In this document: piece after piece, positions 8,742 to 37,285 of the stretch
How the letters are laid out: each line of letters starts with the position of its first letter
Numbering within the stretch: position 1 is the first letter of the stretch
Source of the DNA: Cytophagaceae bacterium
Lineage (GTDB): Bacteria > Bacteroidota > Bacteroidia > Cytophagales > Spirosomataceae
Direction of reading: 5' to 3'
DNA length: 64,000 nt
Assembly: GCA_017984215.1 (NCBI GenBank)
Contig: JAGOAA010000001.1
Span: 1-64,000, forward strand
Made by a program: the position numbers and the translations under genes
The notes under the pieces: generated by a model
Databases searched by the model: none
Seen by the model: the letters and a program-made list of their open reading frames with translations, nothing else
What the model was told of the DNA's origin: nothing

Positions 8742-8770
8742 TTGTAGAGACGCGATACTTCGCGTCTTTT
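8742..8770 (+). terminator. Dispersed 30-bp hairpin repeat, copy 1 (terminator of rlmD)
   Basis: Stem AGACGCGA (8748-8755) pairs with TCGCGTCT (8760-8767) across a TACT loop and is followed by TTTT. It begins 3 nt after the rlmD stop. The identical sequence of about 29 nt recurs at 37255, and a variant lies inverted at 8843-8871. Confidence 0.8.
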
Positions 8771-8817
8771 AGAATTTATACTTTATACTTTATACTTTAG
8801 ACGTTAGTCGTTAGACG
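8769..8817 (+). repeat. Degenerate heptamer array, locus A, left arm
   Basis: Seven heptamers in strict phase, all beginning TTA: one TTAGAAT, three TTATACT, then TTAGACG, its variant TTAGTCG, and TTAGACG again. It begins at the T-tail of the rlmD terminator hairpin. No reading frame or CRISPR-type spacer structure is present. Confidence 0.85.
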
Positions 8818-8842
8818 TTTGCTATGACAATTTTATTTAAAA

Positions 8843-8871
8843 AAAAGACGTGAAATTTCGCGTCTCTACAA
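8843..8871 (-). terminator. Dispersed 30-bp hairpin repeat, copy 2 (inverted)
   Basis: On the minus strand this reads TTGTAGAGACGCGA, then AAAT, then TTCACGTCTTTTTT. It differs from copy 1 in the loop and has one stem base changed (C to T in the right arm). It lies 46 nt downstream of the dnaB stop and is oriented as a terminator for dnaB. Confidence 0.75.
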
Positions 8872-8878
8872 ATTTTCA

Positions 8879-8913
8879 AACGTCCAACGTCTAAAGTCCA
8901 ATGTCCAATGTCT
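8879..8913 (-). repeat. Degenerate heptamer array, locus A, right arm
   Basis: Five in-phase heptamers of consensus AAYGTCY on the plus strand (RGACRTT on the minus strand), for example AACGTCC and AATGTCT. The next seven bases (8914-8920) continue the phase imperfectly and contain the dnaB stop codon. The arm is inverted relative to 8769-8817; both contain GACGTTTG. Confidence 0.85.
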
Positions 8914-11585: not shown

Positions 11586-12012
11586 GATCATTCAGGCTGA
11601 TTCGGATGCACTTATAGCCGCTGTTTTCGAAATACGAACAGAAGTATTTGTTCATGAACAAAAATGCTTGCCTTCAGAAGAGTTTGATGAATTGGATGCG
11701 CAGGCAATTCATTTTCTTTTATTGGAAAATGATCATCCTGTTTCCACGGGTCGTATTCGAAAAACGGATAAAGGGATTAAAATTGAACGTATTGCTACGT
11801 TGAAGGAATCTCGAGGTAAAGGTTATGCGAGTCATATGATTCGACATTTAATGCAAGAAGCTCAGCAACGCTATCCCGAGCAGACTTATTTCTATTTGCA
11901 TGCTCAGGTGGATGTGATGCCTTTGTATCGTTCCTTAGGTTTTGAGCCATTTGGTGGAACTTTTATTGAAGCAGATATCGTTCATCAAGCCATGGAACTT
12001 CAATTAAACTAA
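11566..12012 (+). CDS. GNAT family N-acetyltransferase (YjcF/ElaA-like)
   Basis: A 148-residue acetyltransferase. The acetyl-CoA loop is visible as RGKGYASHMIRHLM, preceded by IERIATLKE, and the C-terminal part has FYLHAQVDVMPLYRSLGFEP. The opening FEIRTEVFVHEQKCLPSEEFDELD is characteristic of the YjcF-like group of small GNATs. ATG 11566 overlaps phoH by 20 nt and gives a full-length domain; a longer frame to 11503 lies wholly inside phoH. Substrate unknown. Probably cotranscribed with phoH and the pirin gene. Confidence 0.88.
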   Translation: MESKTNKIIQADSDALIAAVFEIRTEVFVHEQKCLPSEEFDELDAQAIHFLLLENDHPVSTGRIRKTDKGIKIERIATLKESRGKGYASHMIRHLMQEAQQRYPEQTYFYLHAQVDVMPLYRSLGFEPFGGTFIEADIVHQAMELQLN

Positions 12013-12018
12013 AATCAA

Positions 12019-12891
12019 ATGGCTATTAAAGCAATTGAGGCGGTATATCCTCCTGGTCCCGCACATTTTGTTGGGGATGGTTTCCGAGTACACAATTTTA
12101 TCCCGAGTCGGCATGGCTTAGATATGCAGCGCATGACCCCATTCATCATGATGGATTATGGTGCCAAATTTCATTTTCCTCCTTCTAAAACACTAAAAGG
12201 TGTTGGTGTTCATCCGCATAGAGGATTTGAAACGGTAACAATTGCCTATAAAGGCCGTGTAGCGCATCATGATAGTGCTGGAGGTGGTGGCGTTATTGGT
12301 GAAGGCGATGTACAATGGATGACGGCGGCTTCCGGTGTTTTGCACAAAGAATACCATGAAGAAACGTTCAGCAAAACAGGAGGCGATTTTCAGATGATTC
12401 AATTGTGGGTGAATTTACCCGCTAAAGATAAAATGTCAGCGCCCAAGTATCAGGCAATTGAAAATGTGACTATTCCTAAAGTTCCAGTTGACGGAGGTTT
12501 TGTGGAAGTAATCGCGGGTAATTTTCAAGGTAATCAAGGGAAAGCGAGCACATTCACTCCTGTTCATATGTTTAATGCGCATTTGACCGAAAGAGGAAAA
12601 TGTGAATTCAGTTTTCCTGCCAACTACACCACGTGTTTAGTTGTTGTGGAAGGTGAGATTCGAATCAACGAATCGGAAGAGGCAGTTCCGTTAGATCATT
12701 TTGTCTTATTTGAAAAAAAAGGAGAAACTTTTCACATCGAAGCGACTGAGAATTCTAAAGTGTTAATCTTAAGCGGAGAACCTATCCGAGAGCCGATAGC
12801 TTCCCATGGGCCTTTTGTGATGAATACCCGACAGGAAATCATGCAAGCCTTTCAAGATTTTGAGGATGGTAAATTTGGGGAACTCAATTGA
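12019..12891 (+). CDS. Pirin family protein
   Basis: A 290-residue bicupin. The N-terminal cupin has the metal-ligand pattern VGVHPHRGFETVTI, then VAHHDSAGGGGVIGEGDVQWMTAASGVLHKEYHEE, typical of pirins with quercetinase-like iron sites. The C-terminal pirin domain ends in SGEPIREPIASHGPFVMNT. Pirins are iron-binding proteins, some with quercetin 2,3-dioxygenase activity; the substrate here is unknown. It starts 6 nt after the GNAT stop. The first heptamer of array locus B begins at the base directly after its stop codon. Confidence 0.93.
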   Translation: MAIKAIEAVYPPGPAHFVGDGFRVHNFIPSRHGLDMQRMTPFIMMDYGAKFHFPPSKTLKGVGVHPHRGFETVTIAYKGRVAHHDSAGGGGVIGEGDVQWMTAASGVLHKEYHEETFSKTGGDFQMIQLWVNLPAKDKMSAPKYQAIENVTIPKVPVDGGFVEVIAGNFQGNQGKASTFTPVHMFNAHLTERGKCEFSFPANYTTCLVVVEGEIRINESEEAVPLDHFVLFEKKGETFHIEATENSKVLILSGEPIREPIASHGPFVMNTRQEIMQAFQDFEDGKFGELN

Positions 12892-12947
12892 GAAGTAAGA
12901 GTGAAGATTGAAGAGTGAAGAGGTAAGAATTTAGAGTTAAGAACTAA
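12892..12947 (+). repeat. Degenerate heptamer array, locus B, left arm
   Basis: Eight consecutive heptamers in strict phase fitting GANNNAA or GANNNTA (for example GAAGTAA, GAGTGAA, GAGGTAA, GAACTAA). The first begins at the base right after the pirin TGA. No matching frame or protein is seen. Confidence 0.88.
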
Positions 12948-12996
12948 GAGCATAAAATACTTTTAGGATTTTCAGTTCATTAACTAATGAAATAAA

Positions 12997-13041
12997 AAGA
13001 GGTAAGAGATTGGCTGTCTAACAACCAAACTCTTACCTCTT
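12997..13041 (-). terminator. Long hairpin terminator of the DUF3127 gene
   Basis: A 12-bp perfect stem (AAGAGGTAAGAG at 12997-13008 with CTCTTACCTCTT at 13030-13041) continues through two single mismatches into 4-bp and 3-bp stems, with a 3-nt loop. On the minus strand the stem runs into TTTATTTC, a terminator tail. The outer stem is built from the same heptamer words as the flanking arrays. Confidence 0.75.
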
Positions 13042-13065
13042 CACTCTTAATTCTTAGTTCTTCAC
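13031..13065 (-). repeat. Degenerate heptamer array, locus B, right arm
   Basis: Five in-phase heptamers of form TCTTNNY on the plus strand (TCTTACC, TCTTCAC, TCTTAAT, TCTTAGT, TCTTCAC). They are the reverse complement of the words in 12892-12947. The arm ends 2 nt before the stop codon of the DUF3127 gene. Both arms share the 16-mer GAGTGAAGAGGTAAGA with at most small differences, so they can pair. Confidence 0.85.
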
Positions 13066-13067
13066 TA

Positions 13068-13478
13068 TTAGAATGGCAAATCATCACCACTCTCCGCCGC
13101 TAATGGAGGAAAGTTATTCGCAGGTGCTGCACTTGCAGGAGCTGCGGCTGGAGCAGATGGAGCCCAACCAGCATTGTCTTGTGCGGGAGCAGGTGCTGAA
13201 GCGCCTGAACGATCTAAACGATAGGCGCGAATTTCAGTATACCAGCGCTCATTGTATTCTCTTGATTCCACATTGAATTGCACTTTGACGATTTCACCTT
13301 CTTGAATAGGTGCTAAATCTTGGGTTTTATCGCCCCAAACCGACATGCAAACTTTTTTAGGATATTGATCTTGTGTCTCTAAAACAAACTCTTGTTTAAT
13401 CCAGTTTGTTCCGTTTTTGCCTGTTCCTGTAACCTCAGACATTTTCTTAATAAGTTTTCCGCTTAGTTCTAAAGCCAT
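13068..13478 (-). CDS. DUF3127 protein with SSB-like C-terminal tip
   Basis: A 136-residue protein. Residues 1 to about 85 (MALELSGKLIKKMSEVTG, then KQEFVLETQDQYPKKVCM and YNERWYTEIRAYRLDR) match DUF3127, a small OB-fold-like Bacteroidota family. An Ala/Pro-rich low-complexity linker follows, and the protein ends in ESGDDLPF. That acidic tip with terminal Pro-Phe is like the protein-interaction tail of bacterial SSB. A single-stranded nucleic-acid role is an inference from the layout. Start 13478 is preferred over the open frame to 13514, because MALELSG is the family start. Confidence 0.85.
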   Translation of the reverse strand: MALELSGKLIKKMSEVTGTGKNGTNWIKQEFVLETQDQYPKKVCMSVWGDKTQDLAPIQEGEIVKVQFNVESREYNERWYTEIRAYRLDRSGASAPAPAQDNAGWAPSAPAAAPASAAPANNFPPLAAESGDDLPF

Positions 13479-13507
13479 TACTTGATAATTTTGATATGAT
13501 TGAATTG

Positions 13508-13538
13508 TTGGCAAGTAAGTAAATATTTGGTAATTTTG
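13508..13538 (+). promoter_or_regulatory. Promoter of tRNA-Leu
   Basis: TTG at 13508-13510, 20 nt spacer, TAATTTTG at 13531-13538 (full TAnnTTTG match). Predicted start is about 6-8 nt before the mature tRNA 5' end region. Confidence 0.75.
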
Positions 13539-13550
13539 CTAACCGTTTTT

Positions 13551-13634
13551 GGCGATGTGGTGAAATTGGTAGACACGCTACCTTGAGGTGGTAGTGCCGC
13601 TTTAGGTATGGGAGTTCGAATCTCCCCATCGTCA
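13551..13634 (+). tRNA. tRNA-Leu (GAG)
   Basis: Class II cloverleaf. Acceptor GGCGATG pairs with CATCGTC (one G-U), D-loop with AAATTGGTAGA, anticodon stem CTACC/GGTAG with loop TTGAGGT giving anticodon GAG (13585-13587), a long variable arm, and T arm GGGAG-TTCGAAT-CTCCC. The discriminator is A. CCA is not encoded. Confidence 0.96.
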
Positions 13635-13661
13635 CTTAATTTTTTGTTTAATCTGTAAATC

Positions 13662-14660
13662 ATGTTGAAGATGAAGCCTTACAGTGTGTTACTTTACTAT
13701 AACTATACTCCTATTCCTAATCCTGAGGAGTATCGTATCAAACACCACCTTTTTTGTATTGAGAACAATTTGCTCGGTCGTATTATCGTAGCCGCAGAGG
13801 GTTTAAATGGGACTGTTTCTGGTCTCAAAGAAGATTGCGATGCCTACATGCAGTGGTTAGAAAACGATCCGATTTTTGCGGGTACGGATTTTGACTTTAA
13901 AATCGAATCAAGTGATGTGCATACGTTCAACAAGCTTCATGTTCGTGTGAAAGCTGAAATTGTACACTCCGACCTTCCTGTCAATCCACGTGTTAAAACA
14001 GGAAAACATCTAAAACCAAAAGAATTCAAAGAGATGTTGAAAAACGATCCCGATGTGGTTTTGGTGGATATGCGTTCCAACTATGAACATGAGCTAGGAA
14101 AATTCAAAGGGGCTTATACCTTTGATATGGAGAATTTGCGGGATTTGCCACAACATGTTCAGGAGATTGAACATTTGAAAGGCAAGAAAGTAATTACCTA
14201 TTGTACGGGTGGTATCAAATGTGAAAAGGCATCTGCTTATTTGCTGGACCAAGGTTTTGAAAATGTCTACCAGTTACATGGAGGAATTATTAAATATGGC
14301 TTAGAAGAAGGTGGAGAAGATTTTGATGGCTCATGTTATGTATTCGATAACCGAGTGGCCACGCCAGTGAATTCAGTTAATCCGGAAGTTATATCCAAAT
14401 GTCATGTTTGTCAAGAAAGTTCGGATCACATGGTTAACTGCGCCAATCCGGAATGTAATGAGCATTTAGCGATTTGTCCAAGTTGCTTAAAGGAAATGGA
14501 AGGTGCTTGTTCCAAGGAATGTAAAGAGCATCCGCGCAAGCGTCCTTACAATGAAAAAGGATATTACTCCAAAAATTCAGTTGGTTATTCGCCCGAGTTA
14601 GGATTCAAATCCTTTGGTAGAAATGAGAAAATTGAAAAGAAAAAAATGGCTCAAAACTGA
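13662..14660 (+). CDS. trhO: tRNA uridine(34) hydroxylase TrhO (rhodanese-related)
   Basis: Oxygen-dependent formation of 5-hydroxyuridine at tRNA position 34. Of 332 residues, an N-terminal acylphosphatase-like domain (about 5-100) precedes a rhodanese domain with active-site loop VITYCTGGIKCEKASAYL. A C-terminal Cys-rich segment (about residues 244-288) carries CHVCQ, CANPEC, CPSC and CSKEC, probably binding metal. Length matches the YceA/UPF0176 family. It begins 27 nt after tRNA-Leu, so it may be transcribed from the tRNA promoter. Its stop codon lies inside a bidirectional terminator. Confidence 0.93.
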   Translation: MLKMKPYSVLLYYNYTPIPNPEEYRIKHHLFCIENNLLGRIIVAAEGLNGTVSGLKEDCDAYMQWLENDPIFAGTDFDFKIESSDVHTFNKLHVRVKAEIVHSDLPVNPRVKTGKHLKPKEFKEMLKNDPDVVLVDMRSNYEHELGKFKGAYTFDMENLRDLPQHVQEIEHLKGKKVITYCTGGIKCEKASAYLLDQGFENVYQLHGGIIKYGLEEGGEDFDGSCYVFDNRVATPVNSVNPEVISKCHVCQESSDHMVNCANPECNEHLAICPSCLKEMEGACSKECKEHPRKRPYNEKGYYSKNSVGYSPELGFKSFGRNEKIEKKKMAQN

Positions 14661-37254: not shown

Positions 37255-37285
37255 TTGTAGAGACGCGATACTTCGCGTCTTTTTT
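37255..37285 (+). terminator. Dispersed 30-bp hairpin repeat, copy 3 (terminator of mtaB)
   Basis: Identical to the copy at 8742-8770: AGACGCGA (37261-37268) pairs with TCGCGTCT (37273-37280) and is followed by TTTTT. It lies 18 nt after the mtaB stop. The two copies are 28.5 kb apart and flank unrelated genes. Confidence 0.85.

Follow-up and report, generated by a model that had tools for sequence, protein, structure and literature searches.

Heptamer arrays that read outward from gene ends, and the inverted arms between convergent pirin and DUF3127 genes in a Cytophagaceae bacterium

In the genome of a Cytophagaceae bacterium (assembly G000 here; 2.43 Mb, 70 contigs, 87% complete) the spacer that separates the convergent pirin and DUF3127 genes holds two arrays of degenerate heptamers, inverted relative to each other and each in contact with a stop codon. 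How do such arms arise, and why are they inverted? An earlier note on this DNA had compared this junction (locus B) with another (locus A) and proposed that a common process had expanded different local seed words at the two. We followed this up in the window, by which we mean the whole stretch of DNA analysed, the first 64 kb of contig C65, and then in 847 kb of the same genome, in three relatives and more widely in the phylum. Genes are our own calls, made by codon usage, and the features of both loci are listed in Table 1.

Table 1. Features of the pirin/DUF3127 junction and of locus A, in window coordinates.
Feature	Position	Strand	Remarks
Locus A	8768..8912	.	class 2 (GACNTTR) arms, TTATACT run, GTAGAGACGCG-type palindrome, two convergent genes
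Pirin gene	12019..12891	+	stop TGA 12889-12891; Pfam Pirin (PF02678), Pirin_C (PF05726)
Left heptamer array, 8-9 words, outward from the pirin stop	12892..12950	+	words, lag-7 score
Non-repetitive spacer	12951..12993	.	alignment by eye: alike in G121, the nearest relative, far less so in G122 and G123
Likely intrinsic terminator of the leftward DUF3127 transcript	12989..13042	-	predicted hairpin 12996-13042
Right heptamer array of five full words plus a partial sixth, reading away from the DUF3127 stop	13028..13067	-	
DUF3127 gene	13068..13514	-	stop TAA 13068-13070 (minus strand); Pfam PF11325

The left array reads GAAGTAA, GAGTGAA, GATTGAA, GAGTGAA, GAGGTAA, GAATTTA, GAGTTAA and GAACTAA from 12892, followed by GAGCATA; six of the nine words match GARNKAA (class 1 below), and the earlier description of GANNNAA words starting on the base after the pirin stop holds for seven of eight. 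The five TCTTNNY heptamers described on the right (TCTTACC, TCTTCAC, TCTTAAT, TCTTAGT and TCTTCAC) do fill 13031-13065, 2 nt short of the DUF3127 stop. On the minus strand, and in the GANNNAA register, 13067 to 13033 reads TAGTGAA (imperfect), GAACTAA, GAATTAA, GAGTGAA and GAGGTAA, four of which match GARNKAA. In this register the first base of the right array adjoins the DUF3127 stop as that of the left array adjoins the pirin stop, and the contact with both stops claimed by the note is borne out. The period is exactly 7, with lag-7 segments scoring 18.5 (12897-12949) and 13.5 (13030-13062) and all other lags between 3 and 15, lag 14 excepted, at most 4.5. When the spacer was shuffled 2000 times with dinucleotides preserved, the highest score was 11.5; 11 shuffles reached 9 and none 18.5. 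No open reading frame of at least 60 amino acids crosses the region, and the overlooked coding frame that the note had considered was not found at that length. Rfam at gathering scores returned tRNA only over the whole window and no known RNA family at the arrays; a tRNA gene lies at 13551-13634, just past the DUF3127 gene.

The contigs of the 847 kb scan were taken from a list of matches, so that densities are inflated and the scan is not a random sample. All 32 strong lag-7 segments (score of at least 14) were intergenic; distances 14 and 21 gave 23 and 14 segments, and each of the remaining distances from 2 to 20 at most three. At a lower threshold 53 arrays were obtained at distances 7, 14 and 21, of which 48 lay at least half in intergenic sequence. 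Of these 48, 44 contained GARNKAA (class 1), GACNTTR (class 2) or GACTRRN (class 3) words, two or more of one family, and the four outside the three families included the TTATACT run of locus A (8775-8799). Runs of at least three words numbered 18 for class 1, 19 for class 2, 12 for class 3 and one for class 4 (GAYNACT, a minor class that includes the word TAACTGA); none lay in coding sequence, and the reversed-sequence control gave four in all. As tandem degenerate heptamers found chiefly in spacers, these arrays are like those described by Rehm et al. (2015). The same word families occur in the relatives, where 127 of 130 lag-7 segments were intergenic, and one of them also in G273, a genome of another family. 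Across the phylum (296 genomes) the class 3 pattern was found in 11 genomes and class 1 in 15, several of them at or below the backward control. One Bacteroidota genome, G363, had 258 matches to the class 3 pattern, the listed ones being GACTGAG.

Other repeats share these spacers. REP-like palindromes of type GTAGAGACGCGATACTTCGCGTCT lie at 8744-8767, 8846-8869 and 37257-37280 of the window and are frequent in the spacers of this genome; in a few orthologues they start within a TAG stop. Further palindromes, CCCCAGACT..AGTCTGGGG and TTTGGCAA..TTGCCAAAG, are mixed with arrays at C65:254873-255322 and in other spacers.

To score polarity, a gene boundary was taken to bear an array where at least two in-phase words began no more than 20 nt away. 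In this genome the arrays of 29 out of 30 such boundaries read outward from the gene (23 vs 1 at stops, 6 vs 0 at starts; binomial p 6e-8), and in the four related genomes, this one and the three relatives, 128 of 131 did so and three were opposite. As the orientation of classes 3-5 was named after a first look, the independent part of this result is the consistency at both kinds of boundary: class 3 was outward at 9/9 starts and 10/11 stops, which are opposite transcript strands, and class 1 at 4/4 starts and 79/80 stops. One strand thus lies past stops and the opposite strand ahead of starts, as in the repeats of Rehm et al. (2015). Arrays were found in this genome at 12 of 100 convergent stops, 11 of 264 tandem stops, 6 of 264 tandem starts and none of 194 divergent starts, and within 20 nt of none of 448 divergent starts in the four related genomes. 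Starts preferred classes 3-5 and stops classes 1-2 in this genome (Fisher p 0.018). A near-perfect TAGTCGC array at C38:108178-108272, reading outward 32 nt from a start, was the sole lag-7 array in 103 divergent spacers at the threshold applied. In 420 kb of G273, which belongs to the same bacterial class, all four stop arrays within 20 nt were outward and of class 1, and all stood at convergent stops (4/52, vs 0/149 at tandem stops); an array 45 nt from a stop was outward as well. This genome also had a weak two-word class 3 match at a divergent start, in the opposite direction, and a mid-spacer array about 100 nt from the nearer gene that points towards that gene.

The inverted arms follow from this one rule, that an array reads outward from the gene it adjoins, because a convergent pair has two stops. 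A palindrome-making step is needless for them, since lone arrays at tandem genes are equally outward.

The arrays often start inside the stop codon itself. In this genome TAG was used at 12 of 23 array stops vs 71 of 341 others (p 0.0008 over the three stops). For 79 stops the phase of the first class 1 word relative to the stop was 0 in 32 cases, 6 in 14 and 5 in nine; 25 of the phase 0 cases had TAA and all 14 of the phase 6 cases TAG. The position of the stop mostly survives a change of array: C-terminal length was equal in 16 of 20 protein pairs with unlike array families. It was equal in 8 of 18 pairs with an array in one protein only, vs 421 of 435 without arrays, and arrays may sometimes alter the coding end. 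One gene has TTTAAGTATTAG followed by TCGCTAGTCG here, and in the relative G123 the identical twelve letters are followed by AGTTAAGAGTG. We also considered backup stop codons as the purpose of the arrays and set the idea aside, as it fits neither the arrays at starts nor the Xanthomonas word.

The relatives G121, G122 and G123 have a median protein identity of 94-95% to this genome; some 310 kb of each was analysed, in stretches picked mostly for their matches, which inflates densities most strongly there. Left array, core hairpin (see below) and right array are kept at the pirin/DUF3127 junction in all three, and the loss of 7-mer periodicity in related strains, which would have spoken against the note, did not turn up in these three. 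We compared 477 pairs of orthologous spacers, a count of genome pairs in which one locus may appear repeatedly. Arrays were in both, one or neither spacer in 31, 2 and 51 convergent pairs, 22, 2 and 280 tandem pairs, and 0, 0 and 89 divergent pairs. Persistence is weaker when scored per boundary than per spacer: with a stricter word criterion, 59 orthologous stops had an array in both genomes and 19 in one only. Where both had one, the family was the same in 42 cases and different in 17. Locus A is an example, with GACNTTR arms here and GARNKAA on both arms in G122 and G123.

Five more distant genomes of the same genus (L085-L089) share the pirin/DUF3127 gene pair, and its junction bears palindromes (CCCTTGCAATGCAAGGG or CCTAGCATGCTAGG, for example), in L087 several one after another; several of the five have terminator-like hairpins; no heptamers were seen by eye at these five junctions. 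The class 1 pattern was absent or at or below the backward control in eight of nine genomes of this genus, and the ninth had three matches. A match to Y1 transposase was present in four of L085-L089 and in six of the nine genomes of the genus, and in none of the five array genomes.

Between the arms lies a separate and stronger hairpin that the earlier note had overlooked, at 12997-13041, in which AAGAGGTAAGAG recurs as an inverted copy. Folding of 12996-13042 on the DUF3127 strand gives -30.1 kcal/mol (z -7.59). The right array contributes its innermost stretch as the 5′ arm of this core hairpin, whose 3′ end enters UUUUUAUUUC, the first three U being paired in the fold. A stable hairpin followed by a U tract, as expected of an intrinsic terminator, is found on the minus strand only, the pirin strand of the core having no U tract, and the core is likely an intrinsic terminator for DUF3127 made partly of array words. 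A simple terminator scan of 12000-14000 found none, and the core hairpin was revealed by folding. Among four genomes 17 of the 19 stem pairs were invariant; one variable pair had a double change in one genome and was broken in two, the other was broken in one, and covariation over the four sequences was no better than in shuffles.

As for the arms, with related genomes pooled 21 of 25 convergent loci had both in the same family, vs a mean of 16.3 in shuffles (p 0.003); this genome alone offered two usable loci, which both agreed. At 18 class 1 loci the likeness of the arms was 14.9 within loci vs 14.3 between loci (p 0.25). We read this as arms that are not wholly independent, with a local effect short of word-by-word pairing. 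Copying from arm to arm was rejected, as a signal at the level of words was lacking in these 18 loci.

These observations are best accommodated, on balance probably, by heptamer arrays that belong to single gene ends and share a small genome-wide vocabulary, that would change by slippage and by template switching between families, and whose inner edge would be set by coding selection. As the counts above show, each array is a gene end's own, begins at or inside the stop and runs outward, and convergent genes thereby have inverted arms; the comparison of orthologues shows that the length of an array, and sometimes its family, changes within the vocabulary while the stop stays in place. Copies would be gained and lost by replication slippage, which has been proposed to favour a unit of 7, and occasionally a whole array may be replaced by one of another family through template switching at shared triplets, since TAA, TAG or TGA is present both in the stop codon and in many outward words. 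The inner edge would be fixed by selection on the final codons, the spacer beyond being near neutral, and by folding the innermost words of the right array double as an arm of the likely DUF3127 terminator. Matching of stop triplets can account neither for arrays at starts nor for GGGAATC, the Xanthomonas word, in which no stop triplet occurs; outward polarity at starts, and with unrelated words in other phyla, is outside the reach of this mechanism.

Both arms could instead have been selected as a single long hairpin, in RNA or as a cruciform, by which the convergent transcripts are ended or insulated. The whole-junction fold (z -6.07), the agreement in family between arms at 21 of 25 convergent loci and the fact that both arms are unlike a relative's in family at two loci, A and C51:60879, are what such a hairpin would lead one to expect. 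However, the fold score contains the core hairpin, word likeness within loci is not above that between loci, and tandem spacers with arrays at both ends have the same family in only 2 of 15 cases, with polarity unchanged; moreover, any two same-family arrays so oriented would presumably pair anyway. We consider a selected pair unlikely, and in our best explanation the two arms were not selected together as a single hairpin. The expansion process of the earlier note, amplifying any local seed word at a gene end, appears very doubtful to us. Its observation that loci A and B share an architecture built from different words, and not one sequence that spread, stands, and among long simple repeats the heptanucleotide ones prevail in most genomes rich in repeats (Mrazek, 2007, cited in PMC4679880); the four intergenic arrays outside the three families would also suit it. 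The words are not local seeds, however, given that three families serve the other 44 of the 48 arrays, are common to the relatives and extend in one case to G273, and that families are swapped at orthologous sites.

Outward polarity at starts and stops equally would be expected if 3′ ends at breaks in the spacer were lengthened by a repeated unit, in the manner of telomeres, leaving outward arrays on both sides, and this polarity is also reported from other phyla, with unrelated words (PMC4692102). This is nevertheless highly improbable: reverse transcriptase (PF00078) was not found in G000, G122 and G123, which are incomplete assemblies; at C51:60879 and C51:36555 the family differs with the interior terminator or palindrome seemingly kept (by eye); and a Microcystis sample of TAACTGA repeats before starts is 8/24 reverse and 6/24 forward (PMC4679880), so that the outward rule is not universal. 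Reverse transcriptase was accordingly discarded as the maker of the arrays, although it was found in G121 and G273. Put more broadly, outward polarity could be a word-independent rule in several phyla, a shared, telomere-like process laying arrays from the gene side and the families being interchangeable, hence the swaps at stops that spare the protein; we regard this as decidedly improbable. A mobile unit of MITE or REP/BIME-like kind with heptamers as its terminal inverted repeats would account for the REP-like palindromes that adjoin many arrays, but many arrays are single arms, Y1 transposase (PF01797), the RAYT of REP/BIME elements, was unmatched in G000 (87% complete), G121, G122, G123 and G273, and matches in this genome, besides the locus itself, cover at most 59 of 176 bases; such a unit is exceedingly improbable. 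No second whole copy of the 176-base unit was found in this genome at its 87% completeness, and plasmid searches with array-like queries gave no matches, a result of low weight since BLAST filters simple repeats.

The per-gene-end reading matters beyond this junction. Gene-end heptamers have so far been treated word by word, those of Beggiatoaceae as a regulator site and those of Xanthomonas as quadruplexes. Here the polarity recurs with words that cannot form G-tract quadruplexes, and families replace one another at fixed stops, which suggests that an explanation is due for the rule and not for the word. Array turnover could be watched directly in close strains of this clade, and inverted arms at convergent genes should be taken with caution as evidence of one functional hairpin.

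Among known systems, the core hairpin with its U-rich tail on the DUF3127 strand is like an intrinsic (Rho-independent) terminator, and is unlike one in that the stem shares array sequence and the pirin strand lacks a U tract. Degenerate heptamers also make up the cyanobacterial STRR and the heptanucleotide repeats of the tRNA-Leu intron, where they form complementary arms. A unit of 7 was the most abundant in most genomes studied by Mrazek (2007), who proposed polymerase slippage; it is common to those repeats and ours, and the passages that cite the work (PMC4679880, PMC4692102) mention neither polarity nor family change. Heptamer elements of other kinds are listed for Geobacter (PMC2700814), and short tandem repeats have been surveyed (PMC12699852). 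The TAACTGA direct repeats of Beggiatoaceae, Cyanobacteria and some Bacteroidetes (MacGregor, 2015; PMC4679880) are spacer heptamers as well, and their family is present here as the minor class 4, although the word itself is absent from the pirin/DUF3127 locus. In Beggiatoaceae and Flexibacter they precede starts in forward sense, and in one Flexibacter case they follow a stop in reverse, as the outward rule has it; they are mostly before starts and of one word, whereas ours are mostly after stops and of other words.

In the literature searched, apart from MacGregor (2015) and Rehm et al. (2015), we recognised no description of comparable gene-end heptamer arrays in Bacteroidota and, as far as searched, no printed account of family replacement at fixed stops, of a stop codon within the lattice or of several non-G-tract families under one rule. 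Gene-end heptamer arrays as such are already known from unrelated bacteria. The closest counterpart are the G-rich heptamers GGGAATC of Xanthomonas and GGGGA(T/C)T of Nostoc (Rehm et al., 2015; PMC4692102), which lie on the coding strand within 50 bp past stops, some overlapping them, and on the non-coding strand ahead of starts; inverted pairs number 70 and 75 in two xanthomonads and are few in Nostoc. By RNA-seq, transcripts start or stop more often in repeats able to form quadruplexes than in control repeats. The words of our locus have no GGG and cannot form G-tract quadruplexes, so that we do not file them in this G-rich class although placing and polarity are alike, and quadruplexes cannot be the common reason for such arrays. 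Like those repeats, ours are degenerate, mostly in spacers, placed on the same strands, few between divergent genes, and variable in length and sequence among related genomes; unlike ours, the majority of theirs lie between co-directional genes (PMC4692102). What sets the arrays described here apart from them is that one genome has several families, that families replace one another at orthologous stops and that the stop codon is part of the lattice.
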